DNA of 64,000 nucleotides from positions 82,501 to 146,500 of the forward strand of contig JACEFZ010026856.1 in the NCBI GenBank assembly GCA_014155875.1. Direction: 5' to 3'. Origin of the DNA: Cepaea nemoralis. Lineage: Eukaryota; Mollusca; Gastropoda; Stylommatophora; Helicidae. A program made the position numbers and the translations under genes. The notes under the pieces were generated by a model. The model had not been told where the DNA came from. It ran no database searches and saw only the letters and a list, made by a program, of their open reading frames with translations. Of the stretch, positions 30,907 through 61,051 are shown one piece after another (position 1 is the first letter of the stretch; each line of letters opens with the position of its first letter).

Positions 30907-31193
30907 GACCCTCTCCGGAATCGAACCCTGATTCCCCGTTACCCGTTACAAACATGGTAGGCATGTCACGTACCATCGACATTTGATAGGGCAGACATTT
31001 GAAAGATGCGTCGCCGGCACGTAAGGACATGCTATCAGCACAAAGTTATCCAGTCACCAGTGGGAACGCCGCGGCCCGCGAATGGCAACGATCATTGGTT
31101 TTGAATCAATAAAAGCGCTCTTTCCGCGAAGGTCGGAGCTTGGTTAGCATGTATTAGCTCTAGAATTGCCACAGTTATCCAAGTAGGATACTG
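30907..31193 (-). rRNA. 18S rRNA fragment (dispersed pseudogene)
   Basis: The minus strand reads TCCTACTTGGATAACTGTGG, AATTCTAGAGCTAATACATG, CCCTATCAAATGTCGATGGT and GGGGAATCAGGGTTCGATTC in 18S order, corresponding to roughly the first quarter of small-subunit rRNA. It ends abruptly at both sides, has small rearrangements, and lies in an intron. It is not a functional rDNA unit. Confidence 0.9.
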
Positions 31194-31454
31194 TATATTA
31201 TTATGATAGATATAATGTTAATGTAGCCCTATGGCGTAAACAATAAACGATAGTCACTTTACTTGTGCATGTGTATTACAATAAATATGCCTGGGATGAG
31301 GCAACGGTGCTATCTTTCAATGTGTTCATAGTTGCCTCAGGTGCATTATGTTGACTCATATCCTGTTTTCCACAGGGCAAGATCATTTTTGCCGGAACTC
31401 AATACCAAGAAATCCAAGCCAGGCAACTTCGGACATTCATCTCTCACAATAATT

Positions 31455-33470: not shown

Positions 33471-34630
33471 TCCTTTATGCGGCGGATCTGTTACGTCACA
33501 TTTAACATTGAAGGATTTATTATCAGGCGGATATCATATTTCCACATCATTTCCTAATTAGTTACCTCACTAAAGGGAAAGCTTGGAGTCAAAATAGTGA
33601 TGGAAATAGAAAGGGGTAGACAAGGAAAAACGTGCATAAAACAAGCATGTACTAATCGATCAATTCGTACATCCTTGGAATTATAGAGTGCGGCACAAGA
33701 CAGACAATTATGGAATAGAATGGTGAGGAGGCTCTATGACCAGCCCAAGTCCTGAACAAAAATGATAGTATGTGGTTGCCATGACATTTCAGGTAAGCGA
33801 GAATTAGTGGCTACTAATAAGCAAGGTATTCGATAAGAAACCATGGATACAGATTGCAATTCTCCTGATCACATGGGTGTCGATGATGTATGTGTCACAG
33901 TCATAAGGTCATTCTAATTTAACAGTTTGACTAGACTCAGAATGGAGATTCACTTAATCAACAGGCTGGGTTTTGTCCACCCAGCTGTAATGAATACTGT
34001 TATAGATAACACTGTTAAACACAATGTTCCCTCTTCCATCTCAAGCTTATCGTATAACCATACCTAACGCTCCCGTTCTCGGTTAGAGTGTGCTGACAAT
34101 ATTGTCACATTTCCTTCTTGCCACAAAAACACATAAAACTGTGCATAAACTTCCAATGCACAACTTATAAGTTAATATTCCTTATTTAAACATGTTTTGC
34201 GTTTGCATTTATAGTTTTAATAGTTTCTTCTCCAGCCATGTCTGTGCTGCTCCTAAATATCGTTACTGGGATCGAAACGTCAGATTTCTGTTTTGAATTT
34301 TAACTTATTTATTATAATATTTGTGCAGTGTTATTTTGTTGTTGTTTTATGCTTCTTGTTCCTGTTCCTGTTCTTGTTCTTGTTTTTTTTTCTGGTTCTT
34401 GCTGTTTTTGTTGTTCTTCTTATATTATTACTATTATTGTTTTTAATAATGAAGACACAAACAATATATTGCGAGATTTATTGTCTGGCATATTTCGCTA
34501 AATCTCAAAAGATGCATACTGCAGAAATCACACGACATTGATTAAAGTAATTAGATAAATCCATCAAGCAGAAATATACACACATTCATATAGTAAATTT
34601 AACTATCTGCTACAGTAGCTTTAAACTGAC
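33471..34630. other. No gene recognised
   Basis: AT-rich unique sequence; one T-rich stretch (34330-34440). Confidence 0.4.
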
Positions 34631-44102: not shown

Positions 44103-45083
44103 TTAGGAACCGACATCACAGCACTCGGGACATTCCCATAAGCGCTCCGCCTCCATCCCCAGCAGCCAGCGAAGAGTTCCAACACTAATAGTTCCAGTAG
44201 CAATCTGATTATATGTCCGTCTCGCCTTTCCTCCGAGCGCCGAGCGTCGGCCAGATCCCCTCGTCACACCTTGTTGTCTCATTCTTACCAGACCATGGTG
44301 CTCCATCTGCTCCTCCGAGGTGTACACGTGCTCCCACAAGGCCGCAACCACGTCTGCCTTGTAATGCATCAATACTCCACCAAATTTTGCCGAGCCAGCC
44401 AATCTGTCCGCCTGTTCATTCCCCAGCACACCGGCATGCCCAGGAGAAAAGATCCAGGTGATGCTTACTACCCGTGACCTCCGAAGCGAAGCAAGCCACT
44501 CTGCACGAAGCCTACCTGTTCTCACCCTTCTCAGCATGCTTTCTGAGTCAGTTACAATCACAATGTGTGTATGTATCGTGTTTTCTATCCAGCGGAAAAC
44601 TGCACTTACCGCCTCCACCTCTATTCTTAAGCTAGATGTAGTGTTATCATACGCCAGGCTCTCCTGCACCAAACGCCGACCATTAGTTTTTGCCAAGAAC
44701 CCCCAGGCACTTCTCCTACCTCTCAACACTGACCCATCCGTGTAGATAATCACATCACCCGGGCGAGAATTTTCCTGAATTAGTTGCTGAATTTCCACTT
44801 CCGTGGCCCCTGCTGGCCACTCCCTCCACTCCCGGCTCAAAGTTATTACAACTCTGCACAAGTCTGACTGCACGGCTGGCACTCTGACCCACTCCTCTCC
44901 TCGCCTGATGTTCTCCAAGGGGCACACCTGTCTGATCGTATCCTCCGCCTGAGCCATCCATGATTTCCCTCTTATCAGTCTCTGACCCTTAACTACGTCC
45001 AGCGCGTATGGACTCTTGAGGGACATCCCCTGCCCCTTCCCTAGTAAGCAGGCAATGCTAGGGTGACCGTTTATTTCCTGCAA
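44103..45083 (-). CDS. I-like LINE RNase H domain and C-terminus
   Basis: An open frame of about 326 codons without stops. It reads KGQRLIRGKSWMAQAEDTIR (post-RT), GDVIIYTDGSVLRGRRSAWG (Asp), LRIEVEAVSAVFRWIE (Glu), HIVIVTDSESMLRRVRT (Asp), and WIFSPGHAGVLGNEQADRLA (His..Asp). The four catalytic residues of RNase H1-type folds are present. It ends LWECPECCDVGS and stop, with a CxxCC-type C-terminus. It has no ATG at its start because it is the 3' part of a larger polyprotein separated by the inversion. Its intactness suggests recent insertion. Confidence 0.9.
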   Translation of the reverse strand: MQEINGHPSIACLLGKGQGMSLKSPYALDVVKGQRLIRGKSWMAQAEDTIRQVCPLENIRRGEEWVRVPAVQSDLCRVVITLSREWREWPAGATEVEIQQLIQENSRPGDVIIYTDGSVLRGRRSAWGFLAKTNGRRLVQESLAYDNTTSSLRIEVEAVSAVFRWIENTIHTHIVIVTDSESMLRRVRTGRLRAEWLASLRRSRVVSITWIFSPGHAGVLGNEQADRLAGSAKFGGVLMHYKADVVAALWEHVYTSEEQMEHHGLVRMRQQGVTRGSGRRSALGGKARRTYNQIATGTISVGTLRWLLGMEAERLWECPECCDVGS

Positions 45084-45099
45084 TATCCAAACTTTGCCT

Positions 45100-45861
45100 A
45101 TGGATTTATTTAAACACGGGAATCGTCGCCGGAGCTACGGAGCACGTGCTCTGCGCTTGACACATCTTTCAGCGGCTAGCGAAGAGAGGGTGAGGAGGAG
45201 AAGGCGAGGAAATGGTGTGAGAAGAAGGCATAGAAATAGGAGGGCAGGCGCCAGGAGAGCAAGACGAAAAGTGGAGAGACTAGGTTTCAACCATGTAAGA
45301 GTGGGATACTGGAACTGTCGTAGTGCCAGGCAGAGAGGTCCTGTATTGGAGAGGCTAATATATAATTTTGATGTCCTCATGCTCCAGGATTTAAATACAG
45401 ATAAATACCATTGCCCTGGGTACGTCAGTTATATAAACCCCACTGGGCAGAAGAGACATGGGCAAGGTCTGCTGGTGAAGAAAGGAGTAAAGCATGTGGC
45501 ACTTGACTTAAGCCAGTGGAATCACAGTGCAAGAGAGGTCCAGGGTATACAAATGGAGATTGGTGGCTTAAGTTGGAACATCATAAATGTATATGCCACA
45601 GTGGACTGTTTTGTCAGAAAGGAACAATGGGACTGGATTAAGGAATTAGAGGACTTACCAGGTGATAGGCTACTCATATTTGGAGACTTCAATGCGAGAA
45701 ACAGAGAGTGGGACAGTAGTGGAGAAAATCGACAAGGAATTGCACTTGCGGATGCCATGGTGGACTCCGAGGTGGTCTGCATAAATGATGGTAGGCCAAC
45801 TAGAATGGCAATGAGGCCTGGCGATGCAGATACTGCTATTGATTTGACACTTGTCTCCTAG
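45100..45861 (+). pseudogene. I-like LINE ORF2, APE-type endonuclease, interrupted
   Basis: The frame from ATG 45100 has a basic region (about residues 10-60, rich in RRR), then VRVGYWNCRSARQRGPVLER (Asn and, in place of the usual E, QDLNT), LLIFGDFNARNREWDSS (the D-F-N active-site block), and TAIDLTLVS. TAG at 45859-45861 stops it just before the expected S-D-H block, which follows in the same frame as NDHWSDHMPCSVL. Only the stop and a downstream frameshift separate it from the RT. Confidence 0.88.
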
Positions 45862-47836
45862 TCATCAGTCCTTGATGTAAGGTGGACTGTTTTGAATGAC
45901 CATTGGAGTGATCACATGCCATGCTCAGTCCTGATCTCTAAGTCCAGGAAAGTTAAGGCTGGGAGAGCGCGCAAGACCTTTCGGTATGAGCGGAGCGACA
46001 GTCCTCTTGGACGCCTCAGACTTGGGGCATGCAACAGGACTGTTAAAACTCCTTTTTTTGCAGCCCCCATGGTGGACCCCAGAAGTAGACAATGCGTGGA
46101 AAGCAAAGAGAGCTGCAGTGAAGCAGCTAAGGAAATTGCGACAGACACCCCTAAGGTCACGAGAGGAAGTGGACATAGCGGAAAATGACAAGAAAGACAA
46201 GGTGGAGGCTTTCAAGCGATGTGCTGCAGAGGCCAAGAAAGTAAAATGGGAATGTTTTATGAAGGAGGTTGGAGGTGATAAAACACTGCATAAATTCTGG
46301 AAACTGTACAGACAAATGCAAAGAAAAGATCGGCCTATGACAATGGGAACAATTTATAAAGAGGATGGGGTACGCTTGACAACAGACAAGGAGAAAGGGG
46401 AGGCGTTTCTCCAGAGATTCTTAGAGCAGACCAATCATAGTGATGCGGATACCAGGGATGCAGTTAGAGGGGAATTATCTGGCACAATAGAGAATATGCC
46501 TTACGAAGACATCATACTGTTTGAAGATGTTAAACATAGTTTGCAGAAGGCAAAAGACACGGCACCAGGGCCTGACAGTGTCAGGTATGGCCACATGAAG
46601 GCTTTGAGCGATGTAGACCTGAAGGAGATGGCCGGCTGCTTTAATCAGAGCATTAGGACAGCGTCAGTACCGCAGGATTGGCTGCATAGCTATCTCATCC
46701 CTCTCCCAAAACCATTCAAGGATCATTCAAAGCTTGCCGGCTTTAGGATCATCACCCTTCAAAATACATTTGGGAAGGTTTTAGAGAAGATAGTCGCTGT
46801 TAAGCTGCAGGATTTTTTGGAAAGGGGGAAGCTTCTTCCAAGAGGCCTGGGGAGCTACAGGCCAGGAAAAGATACCTGGTCAAATGCAGCCACCTTTGCC
46901 TTTGACGTTTATGAGGGGTTCCAGAGTAGACAGGAAACGATGGCGGCAGCGCTTGATCTCGAAGATGCGTACAATAGAGTTCGCTATGATATTTTGATGA
47001 CCGCACTTATGGAGAAGGAGGTCAATCCCTGGTTGGTGAACTGGATAGCAGCCGTCCTGCATTCTCGTCAAGTTGCTCTCCGTCTAGGCGCATGGACCTC
47101 AGAGCCACATATTTTAACCCCGGGACTGCCACAGGGATCTGCAATCTCACCGGTGCTCTTTAATGTGTATACGAGCAAGATTGCATACCTAGAAGCACCA
47201 GGGGTTGGAAGGATTCTAACATTTGCAGATGATATTCTTGCATACAGGCAGGGGAGAAATAGGGATCAAACAGCCCAGGAGCTACAGGTGACAGTGGACA
47301 AAGTGATTGACTGGTGCACTGAAATGAGTGCTGTCATCAACCCGGAAAAGGCGGCGGTGTTGTGGTGCTCTCTGGACAACAGGATTGTGAGAGATGATAC
47401 CCCAAGCCTCACGATAGATGGTAGAAGCGTCAACAGAGAGAACAAACTGAAGTATCTGGGAATCACATTTGACAGGAGTCTGTCCTTCAAGGACCATGTG
47501 GAGACGGTTGTGACAAGATCTCAAAAGGGACTCAATGCACTTAAAACTATGGCTGCAATGGACACAGAGCAGAGAATGCTCTTCACACTATACCAGCACT
47601 TGATCCTCTCAGTGATTGATTATGGACTAGGAATGCTCACTGTCTCAAAGAGTCAGCTGGTGAAATTAGAGCGCATACAGAATGAAGCGATGCGGGTCAT
47701 TCTGGGATGCACCAGAGACACTCCAGTAGTGTGTATGCGTTACATCCTTGGTCTTCCTACTGTTGCTAGTAGGCACAAGGTGATGCAAGCGAAGGCATAC
47801 CTCAGAGTAGCTGCAGACACAGATCACCCGTTGCAT
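45862..47836 (+). pseudogene. I-like LINE ORF2, reverse transcriptase, frameshifted
   Basis: After the TAG the same frame continues to about 46060, where a run of seven T shifts it into the frame starting PWWTPEVDNAWKAKRAA. RT blocks follow: KDTAPGPDSVRYGHMKAL, AALDLEDAYNRVRYDIL (first Asp), ILTPGLPQGSAISPVLFNVY, RILTFADDILAYRQG (catalytic A-D-D), NKLKYLGITFDRSLSFKDHV. Catalytic residues are kept. Coding of the element ends at LRVAADTDHPLHE; the remaining codons to 47926 are target-site and flanking DNA. Confidence 0.9.
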
Positions 47837-47850
47837 GAAGGAGGTACCGA
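47837..47850 (+). repeat. Target site duplication, right
   Basis: GAAGGAGGTACCGA, identical to 44068-44081; flanking genomic sequence continues ATTACCATCT. Confidence 0.9.
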
Positions 47851-48064
47851 ATTACCATCTACAACAAGGGTGTGTTACAAAGCTTGCCTTCACCTCTCCA
47901 AGCGCGCGATCACGCAGCTCTTGTAAGATAAGAACCTCAGTTTAACACTGCAGCAAAACTCGGCAATACACGTGACGTTAACCAGACTGGAAAACTAGTC
48001 TCTTCATAAAAGTGGAGGTCCTTTACGGTCTTGTCCGGTTTAATTGCTGCACTATATATGCAGG

Positions 48065-56508: not shown

Positions 56509-56520
56509 TTCTACTAATTT
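56509..56520 (+). repeat. Target site duplication, left (retrozyme-like insertion)
   Basis: TTCTACTAATTT, identical to 57378-57389. Confidence 0.88.
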
Positions 56521-56596
56521 AAATATTGAGCACAACCCACTACTGGCAACGCCAATCGCATTCTGATATGAACCTAAGGCCTATCCACGTTAATAT

Positions 56597-56651
56597 GGAA
56601 GCACTATACACGAGTTTCGCCCTCATTTGAGCTCGTCAGTAGTGCATATCC
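56597..56651 (-). ncRNA. Type I hammerhead ribozyme (unit 1)
   Basis: On the minus strand: stem I GCACTA with TAGTGC (perfect 6 bp, plus an outer GGA/TCC across a TAT/T internal loop), core CTGACGA, stem II GCTC/GGGC closing loop AAATGA, core GAAA, a minimal stem III (AC/GT with loop TCGT) and cleavage site GTA before TAGTGC, i.e. between 56607 and 56606. All invariant core bases are present. A two-pair stem III is unstable alone and typical of ribozymes that work as dimers in tandem RNA. Confidence 0.88.
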
Positions 56652-57213
56652 CTGACCGGATCCGGAAACAGTCCCGGATCACGCGTGTGAAGCGGGTGTG
56701 TAACCACGCGGCACACACTGGACACACCAAATTATCACAACAGAACATCACAACGCCACCCATCGTAGGCTATGCTCAAGATTGCCCAATAGCCGCGACC
56801 GACGTCCGTCAATCGATGGGACCCGAACGATCAGGACTTCTCACTGGCAAGGAACACCAGGCCTCCTAAATCCAGTGAGCAATAATCAATTGATTATGTG
56901 GTTGTTTCGGGATTTGAAATTTAAATATTGAGCACAACCCACTACTGGCAACGCCGATCGCATTCTGGTATGAACCTAAGGCCTATCCTTAGGATTTAGG
57001 AGGCCTGGTGTTCCTTGCCAGTGAGAAGTCCTGATCGTTCGGGTCCCATCGATTGACGGACGTCGGTCGCGGCGATTGGGCAATCTTGAGCATTGCCTAC
57101 GATGGGTGGCGTTGTGATGTTCTGTTGTGATAATTTGGTGTGTCCAGTGTGTGCCGCGTGGTTACACACCCGCTTCACACGCGTGATCCGGGACTGTTTC
57201 CGGATCCGGTCAG

Positions 57214-57268
57214 GGATATGCAATACTGACGAGCTCAAATGAGGGCGAAACTCGAGTATAGTGCTTCC
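57214..57268 (+). ncRNA. Type I hammerhead ribozyme (inverted unit 3)
   Basis: Same architecture on the plus strand: GGA..GCAATA, CTGACGA, GCTC/GGGC with AAATGA, GAAA, CTCGAGTA, TAGTGC. Stem I has one A.G mismatch compared with unit 1. Stem III reads ACTCGAGT, a palindrome that could pair between two molecules. Predicted cleavage between 57258 and 57259. Confidence 0.86.
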
Positions 57269-57377
57269 ATATTGACGTGGATAGGCCTTAGGTTCATACC
57301 AGAATGCGATCGGCGTTGCCAGTAGTGGGTTGTGCTCAATATTTAAATTTCAAATCCCGAAACAACCACATAATCAA

Positions 57378-57389
57378 TTCTACTAATTT
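57378..57389 (+). repeat. Target site duplication, right (retrozyme-like insertion)
   Basis: TTCTACTAATTT, identical to 56509-56520. Confidence 0.88.
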
Positions 57390-59129: not shown

Positions 59130-59637
59130 CTGGAACAGATTTGTAGGTGTACATGTATATTTTAGAGGACATTAGACATTTTACATTTGTGGTGGAACAA
59201 GATAAACCTATGTAGTTTCAGGAACATTTGACAGAATGATTAATCTTTTAGGTATCATTGCAACAAAAGAGATATGCACGTTTTACGGGGCAATATACAA
59301 AAATATGTATATATGAGGGTCAAAAGGAGAGAAATAAACATATTTGATTGGACACGACACATACTCATCTTTAATTGTCTTCTCTGGAGAAATCATGTAT
59401 GTTACAACTCTGCCATCATCTCTGACACCTTTTATTGTAATGAAGCTGACGGCGCATAGATTATTAGTTGATGCCCATCTGATTTACCTTTCACGTTCAT
59501 CTCTCACCGTCATCTCTGTCCTTTTGGCAAGTAACCCCCACACATTTTATGTAGCCTTTCTTTTTCATTTTGATGAATAATAGTGTAACCCGCCCACCCC
59601 CATTCCACTGACCCCACTCAGGTGTGAATATGGGAGA
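59130..59637. other. No feature recognised
   Basis: AT-rich; no splice-bounded stabilin exon seen. Confidence 0.4.
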
Positions 59638-61051
59638 ATGAGATTGTTTATCCTATCTCCACCAAATCATTATGGCTGGGGCATATGGAGGGATACTGGA
59701 AATATACCTCATGAGTTGTGTAATTCTGTATTTATTGCAATCCCAAAGAAATCAGGAGCCTTGGAATGTGATCAACATCGAACAATTAGTATAATGAGTC
59801 ACATCACGAAGATTTTGCTAAGAATTATCATGCAAAGAGTTAGGAGGAAAATACAACCTGAAATAGGAGAAGAACAATGTGGGTTTGTAGTAGGCAAGGG
59901 TACAGTAAATGCTGTGTATATACTGAGAACCGTAATCGAACGTTCTATAGAAGTAAACAAAGATCTACACCTTTGCTTTATTGACTACACAAAGGCTTTT
60001 GATAAAGTGAGACATGTCAACATGATAAGGATGCTTGAAGATCTACAAATTGATGGGAAAGACCTTAGACTTGTAAAAAACATATATTGGAAACAACAAG
60101 CTGCCATAAGAGTTGATAATGAAGTAAGCCAATATCAGCCTATTAAGAGAGGTGTGAGACAGGGATGTGTAATGTCTCCAGATCTGTTTTCCCTGTACAG
60201 TGAAAATATTTTCAGAAATATTGAAAATATGGAAGGAATCAACATTGGGGGACGATGCATCAATAACATTAGATATGCAGATGATACAGTCTTGATTGCG
60301 GACAATGAACAGGACCTGCACAATTTAGTAGATGCTGTTGTTACACACAGTGAACAACAAGGGTTAGAATTAAATTGTAAAAAGACACAGATTATGGTCG
60401 TCATTAAGAAGAACGAAATACCACAGTGTAATATACAAGTTAATGGGAATATTCTTCAACAAGTGAATAGGTACAATTATCTCGGAACAGTAATAACATC
60501 TGATGAGAGATGCCTTGAAGAGATTAGAACAAGGATCGCCATGGCAAAAGTAGCCTTTAGCAAGATGAAAAACATACTGACCAATAAAAAGATGTCAATT
60601 GAAACGAGAAAAAGAGTGTTGAGATGCTACATAGAACCTGTACTTTTATATGAATTTGAAGCTTGGACAATGAGCAGCCAGGCTGAAAAACATCTGATGG
60701 CTGTAGAAATGTGGTTTCTGGGGAAAATGCAAAGAATACCATGGACAGCCAGAAAGACCAATGAACAAGTCCTTCAAGAAAGAAATGAAGATCGTAAACT
60801 GATCAGAGACATTAGACGTAGACAGTCACAATTTTTTGGGCATGTTATGAGAAGAAATGATTTGGAGAACTTGGTGACAACTGGTAAGATCGAGGGGAAC
60901 AGACCAAGGGGAAGACCTAGAAACAAGTATCTGGATGGCTTGGCCTTGTGGCATGGTCGAGACAAAAACACGGAACTGATCCACGACTCTGTTGATCGAG
61001 TGAGTTGGCAGAACATGACCGCCCACGCTTACCGGCATGGCACATGATGGA
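59638..61051 (+). CDS. Family-A LINE reverse transcriptase, 5'-truncated but open
   Basis: A 469-codon open frame without stops; homology to the split copy begins near 59690. RT blocks: IPKKSGALECDQHRTISIMS, LHLCFIDYTKAFDKVRHVNM (first Asp), IKRGVRQGCVMSPDLFSLY, NIRYADDTVLIADNEQ (catalytic Y-A-D-D), NRYNYLGTVITSDERCLEEI. The C-terminal domain is MQRIPWTARKTNEQ, RRRQSQFFGHVMRRNDLENL, GNRPRGRPRNKYLDGL, ending AHAYRHGT. No RNase H. No endonuclease: the element is 5' truncated, so it cannot retrotranspose itself. A (GATG)n tail follows at 61047. Intact motifs make this the youngest family-A copy in the window. The clade (RTE/Jockey-like) is not resolved. Confidence 0.9.

Follow-up and report, generated by a model that had tools for sequence, protein, structure and literature searches.

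The 402-nt hammerhead unit found in the window, a 64,000-nt stretch of the Cepaea nemoralis genome, is most probably a non-autonomous animal retrozyme, non-coding and equipped with a type I hammerhead, that was inserted by the reverse transcriptase and GIY-YIG endonuclease of a Penelope-like element (PLE). We put the probability of this reading at roughly 0.8. The retrozyme copies bear the mark published for PLEs, and the PLE copies of the same genome are built alike, which therefore provides new evidence for insertion by PLE machinery; as read from the sequence, the insertion signature points to that machinery. The fold-back form is the usual product in our sample, with a two-site start, a tail on one arm and a 12-bp duplication.

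The window copy is an 857-bp insert (56521-57377) between perfect 12-bp repeats. The left copy of the target duplication, TTCTACTAATTT, lies at 56509-56520 on the plus strand. Its last five nucleotides (AATTT) also match unit nt 87-91, which is likely the annealing patch of the top-strand primer. The unit is numbered in the ribozyme sense, starting from the base that follows the cleavage site (nt 1). The left arm (56521-56988, 468 nt) has its sense on the minus strand, and its first templated nucleotide is unit nt 86 (site A, the tail-less end). Read from 56988 down to 56521, this arm is made of one unit plus 66 nt, crosses the ribozyme junction and reaches unit nt 21 of the preceding unit, with two differences in its 66-nt self-overlap. 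The first unit, which a preliminary description of this DNA had taken for truncated, is complete. At the 5'-to-5' inversion junction, the three nucleotides TTA (56989-56991) match neither arm. The right arm (56992-57377, 386 nt, sense on the plus strand) has unit nt 119 as its first templated nucleotide (site B, the tail end) and stops at unit nt 136. It differs from the unit of the left arm at 7 of 386 positions.

Unit nt 87-119 (57345-57377, plus strand) are carried by the right arm only, past the end of the left arm, and are called the tail here, partly by comparison with the available text of PMC11167929. The right copy of the target duplication follows at 57378-57389 on the plus strand, and its first two nucleotides (TT) also match the unit. 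The sense 3' ends of both arms point outward. Within the 64-kb window, no reading frame of at least 150 aa overlaps the insert. The preliminary description was right on the coordinates, the inversion, the 402-bp unit and the identical 12-bp flanks. Elsewhere in the window, a 303-bp piece of eukaryotic 18S rRNA (30915-31217, minus strand; RF01960, 144.5 bits) is apparently a dispersed rRNA pseudogene.

Type I hammerhead ribozymes are found on both strands of the insert. The minus-strand ribozyme (56601-56645) has a perfect 6-bp stem I (GCACTA/TAGTGC), and its predicted cleavage falls between 56607 and 56606. The plus-strand one (57220-57264) has a single stem I mismatch (GCAATA) and a UCGA loop in stem III. 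The two complete hammerheads initially reported are both present, the perfect stem I being confined to the minus strand. The Rfam model for this type (Hammerhead_1, RF00163), suggested at the time as a check, matches at both places with 26.4 bits (minus strand) and 22.8 bits (57221-57264), below the gathering threshold of 34; neither hammerhead is listed by the whole-window search at gathering score. A descriptor designed after the motif had been seen (core, 4-6 bp in stem II, 2-5 bp in stem III, and a 6-bp stem I with at most two mismatches) matches exactly the two ribozymes in 64 kb; when the window was simulated 400 times with a first-order Markov model, it gave one match. Of the 154 complete copies in the genome sample, 145 keep the core and 122 are identical. 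The retrozyme-like nature proposed earlier is supported. Formally, the lack of a hit above threshold is an outcome that the preliminary description had named as refuting it, but the Rfam gathering threshold is too strict a test here.

The RNA of the unit is predicted to be strongly folded. As a circle, it reaches -147.4 kcal/mol, compared with -122.9 (sd 6.0) for 100 shuffles (z -4.0) and -113.7 for the antisense. In the predicted circle, nt 118-121 form an AAUU tetraloop with a pairing probability of 0.01, and nt 86-89 are unpaired, with 0.04 or less. From PLE machinery, a start in an AC-rich stem-loop would be expected. Site B is this AAUU hairpin loop and is not AC-rich; the AC-rich stretch AAACAACCACA, contained in the tail of the window copy, falls between sites A and B.

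The further copies expected by the preliminary description were found at dozens of places in the genome (3.47 Gb, 26,579 contigs), where 271 matches were counted, with 40 of 1780 first-look candidates scored. The sample consists of 39 fetched loci (L001, which is the window copy, and L009-L046), and the query itself contained the inverted form. Two loci are duplicates on second contigs (L010 of L009, L025 of L021), and the two near-identical elements of L019 were counted once. After this de-duplication, the 39 loci yield 24 two-armed elements and 14 one-armed loci, L016 containing two two-armed elements, one of which is an old relative at 77-84% identity. All 24 non-redundant two-armed elements run 5'-to-5' (sense-minus, then sense-plus). 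The search was repeated with one unit alone, avoiding the inverted query (40 of 475 candidates scored, matches only), and it added eight two-armed places to the sample, every one of them 5'-to-5'. Two of these, C22402 and C21792, are mirror images and probably one insertion on two contigs, which leaves seven distinct places. In this pooled sample of the genome, 31 of 31 distinct two-armed copies are 5'-to-5' with the sense outward; in three of them (L021, 33 bp; C22402/C21792; C2641), the second-arm match is short, only 31-57 bp.

A one-off fold-back accident is rejected, the two-armed form being family-wide. Long one-way arrays are also present (L020, L024 and L027, the last with at least 16 units). 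At L019 (G000:C5970:285500-295400), two elements 5.4 kb apart have the same left-arm extent and the same duplication, and the right arm of the second is shorter; the pair is probably the result of a later segmental DNA duplication. The old relative at L016 (L016:5740-6297) is two-armed in the same way; its ends lie at nt 87 and 115, and its target duplication is exact and 14 bp long. From this element, the insertion mechanism looks old in the host lineage.

A target duplication is present in 21 of the 24 two-armed elements. Its length is 12 bp in 12 elements, 13 bp in four, 14 bp in two, and 15 and 16 bp in one each; L012 has 7 exact bp, or 13 with one mismatch by eye. As for the elements lacking a scored duplication, L021 has none, L033 runs into Ns and L045 lies in an AT microsatellite. 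For the 20 duplications of at least 12 bp, a fixed length of 12 bp with chance extension predicts 11.2, 5.6 and 2.1 cases at 12, 13 and 14 bp, where 12, 4 and 2 were observed. As a control, flanks of different loci match by at least 10 in 1.4% of the pairings. The duplications are 76% A+T, versus 58% for the window. Only one of the 11 testable one-armed loci has a duplication (L031, 10 bp).

The positions at which the arms start are recurrent. In all 21 copies with a duplication, exactly one end starts at unit nt 107-120. The other end starts at nt 84-94, about 30 nt upstream, in 15 of the 21, and at nt 12, 20, 23, 35, 44 or 398 in the remaining six; no copy among them has two ends of the same kind. 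At 38 of the 42 arm ends, arm and duplication share 1-9 nt of microhomology. The earlier proposal of priming from both target ends is supported by the uniform orientation (31 of 31), the 12-bp duplications and the recurrent start sites.

The RNA template was characterized on 46 arms of 23 elements, excluding the old L016 relative and taking only the outer piece of the L011 left arm. The ribozyme junction is crossed by 42 arms, 31 arms exceed one unit, and just one ends 3 nt or less from the cleavage site. A hammerhead-cleaved linear monomer is rejected as the usual template, since the arms run across the ribozyme junction. The template is likely a circle, and an uncleaved multimer remains as the alternative. 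The presence of one B and one A site in each copy was not retained as proof of a monomer circle, since PLE copies, whose RNA there is no reason to regard as circular, follow the same pattern. The inner 5' ends lie exactly at unit nt 136 in 5 of the 46 arms (L001, L009, L014, L016 and L018), which would be either a reverse-transcription stop or a recurrent joint.

Three segregating sites served as markers in 22 elements, each arm being represented by its majority base. Within a locus, the left and right arms carry the same base in 49 of 52 comparisons; shuffles of arms between loci average 57%, and none of 5000 reaches the observed value. The disagreements are found at nt 41 in the window copy, whose left arm is split between T and C, and at nt 41 and 263 in L041. 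Variants are thus shared between the two arms, and therefore a single RNA source served both.

Changes common to at least two units of a locus are biased towards one strand, with 17 A>G versus 1 T>C and 15 C>T versus 6 G>A. Singleton changes are nearer to even (25 A>G, 15 T>C; 36 C>T, 41 G>A). One locus, L013, supplies eight of the 17 A>G and the sole T>C, and without it the counts are 9 and 0. The one-sided p of 7e-5 for 17 versus 1 is too small, clustered changes having been taken as independent. In L013 (G000:C2388), seven A>G changes fall within unit nt 362-394 (33 nt), affect the ribozyme core and are alike in both arms. The cluster resembles the outcome of A-to-I editing, acting before copying on the template RNA or on an ancestor.

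PLEs are present in the same genome. A search for the GIY-YIG domain gave 107 matches, with 150 of 2019 candidates scored. A PLE frame of 909 aa (L059) scores 26.6 bits for GIY-YIG, above the cut-off, and 27.9 bits for RVT_1, just below it. Among its 120 listed relatives, the four with a named organism are gastropod proteins (Physella, Biomphalaria, Arion and Littorina). The window itself contains, at 33858-34016, a fragment of a Penelope-like protein with 58% identity over 53 aa to this frame.

The PLE copies came through tail-bearing queries (best 40 of 2162 and of 3920 candidates). Their 3' ends fall at one or the other of two sites, which are separated by about 42 nt. Six copies are two-armed (L049, L066 and L070-L073), and all of them are 5'-to-5' with a tail on one arm only. 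In this small sample, the exact duplications measure 12 bp (L066, L070), 6 bp (L071, or 12 bp with one mismatch by eye), 11 bp (L072, L049) and 14 bp (L073), lengths of about 12 bp that agree with those of the retrozyme copies. A contrary case is L062, where both arms reach the tail end and the flanks show no duplication. The loci L064 and C1318 are partial, and L022 is an old PLE copy of two-armed shape, without a clear duplication. A comparison of 15 PLE loci with the unit gave no match beyond chance (best E 1.8), and sequence kinship between the PLE of this genome and the unit is rejected on that value.

Taken together, insertion by PLE machinery could proceed as follows. Transcripts of the tandem genomic units would be cleaved by the hammerhead and circularized, as published for animal retrozymes. 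A PLE protein, probably a dimer, would then bind the RNA and cut AT-rich DNA with a 12-nt stagger, a length taken from the duplications. Each 12-nt 3' overhang would prime inside the RNA. One would do so at site B, the AAUU loop around nt 118, and the other in most cases at site A, around nt 86 and some 30 nt further upstream; these start sites are observed, and their order is assumed. Both strands would extend past the ribozyme junction, often for more than one unit, and their ends would be joined 5'-to-5', with short microhomology or a few extra bases at the joint, as seen in the final structure.

In a more specific form, a PLE dimer would start at the two loop sites of one hammerhead-made circle with a 12-nt stagger, and the strands would run around the circle, sometimes several times, until they meet 5'-to-5'. 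This form is proposed because most arms cross the junction, many exceed the unit and both arms are alike in their variants; we hold it at even odds. Should it apply, the tandem arrays would be the footprint of rolling-circle reverse transcription.

Ordinary twin priming by a LINE is a rival reading. In this case, an APE-type LINE would nick the target and start synthesis on the retrozyme RNA; microhomology would allow the second strand to prime upstream, giving the inverted arm. The geometry fits, the microhomology of 38 of the 42 arm ends speaks for it, and two long frames of the window (44103-47926 and 59584-61047) are, by eye, candidates for a LINE endonuclease and reverse transcriptase. 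However, LINE inserts have duplications of varying length and are inverted in a minority of cases. In the retrozyme copies, the duplication is fixed at 12 bp, and all tested copies with a duplication except L031 are two-armed, the LINE side of this comparison being general knowledge. Two recurrent internal starts with a one-armed tail are, moreover, reported for PLEs and present in those of this genome. We consider a LINE origin unlikely.

Events at the DNA level, with satellite units inverted or spread by recombination, extrachromosomal circles or palindrome-forming repair, could explain the one-way arrays (L020, L024, L027), and the L019 pair does resemble a later DNA duplication. Such events would be very improbable as the source of the family, in view of the 12-bp duplications, the single orientation of all 31 copies and the ends at fixed unit positions; the sense-strand bias of the common changes, with or without L013, points to RNA. 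Inverted repeats are also a known artefact of long reads, in which fold-back reads are collapsed, and some loci are indeed seen on two contigs (L009/L010, L021/L025). A false fold-back would not create a duplicated 12-bp flank, end the arms at differing unit positions or recur at dozens of unrelated places, and for the family an artefact is hardly credible.

Circular RNAs of animal retrozymes are abundant, and insertion by PLE machinery would bear directly on the question of what copies them into DNA. In the available text of the three reports, PLEs are a strong candidate (PMC7229834), PLEs and Terminons are likely candidates (PMC7761336), and LINEs or PLEs are candidates (PMC11722881), on the basis of co-occurrence and the common type I hammerheads. 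No report linking the anatomy of retrozyme inserts to PLEs was found in the accessible parts of the open-licence literature. The answer had rested on co-occurrence, and the insert anatomy offers a readable signature, which can be searched for in other animal genomes. The unit may also be useful in PLE biochemistry, as an RNA substrate that is small and defined. It suggests that a PLE protein is able to use RNA joined across the ribozyme site, perhaps circles.

Among the known systems, LINE-1 twin priming is alike in its 5'-to-5' inversion and in the target priming of both ends; from general knowledge, it differs in starting primarily near the 3' end of the RNA, in duplications of variable length and in inversion of a minority of inserts. 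Plant LTR retrozymes have a hammerhead, a circular RNA and a non-autonomous nature in common with the unit, but possess a type III hammerhead, LTRs and 4-bp duplications (PMC7229834 and PMC7761336, in the parts available).

The closest relatives in kind are the animal non-LTR retrozymes. In the accessible part of PMC7229834, these are type I hammerhead, non-coding elements of tandem 150-450-bp units (about 350-390 bp in mussels) with duplications of more than 4 bp and a highly self-paired RNA. The class lacks LTRs, a primer-binding site and a polypurine tract, and is expressed as linear and circular RNAs that arise by self-cleavage. The unit agrees in hammerhead type, 402-bp tandem units, many copies, lack of coding, 12-bp duplication and self-paired RNA. 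By these features it would be a member of this known kind, with a borderline GC content (49.3%, below the 50% of the text and above the 45% of a figure legend in that partly available source). The family had been called undescribed; its kind is described (PMC7229834, as far as available), and the 402-nt sequence family alone may be new. Phage and plasmid collections gave no blastn match to the insert, and the exact 26-base core pattern is absent from viral contigs and from bacterial and archaeal genomes, all collections that hold no animal genomes and are silent on novelty. The retrozymes of PMC7229834 are described as tandem repeats, and the available portion of its main text makes no mention of inverted two-armed copies, two fixed starts or a tail.

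These traits are instead those of endonuclease-positive PLEs. In the available text on the Anolis element PAc (PMC11167929), the PLE has two neighbouring internal start sites, one at either boundary of the tail, and both strands are cut and extended. Penelope elements of Adineta (PMC3846280, in part) have head-to-head inverted pLTRs, an optional 31-bp tail on one of them and 8-10-bp duplications. The unit differs in its 12-bp duplication, in a tail sequence unlike that of the PLE of the Cepaea nemoralis genome, and in encoding neither reverse transcriptase nor endonuclease, so that it is a passenger and not a PLE, the PLE frame being separate. According to the available parts of both reports, it is like these PLEs in its head-to-head arms, its single-arm tail of about 30-40 nt and its two-site internal start, and further in the AT-rich target, the priming of both strands, the tandem units and the hammerhead that PLEs often carry.
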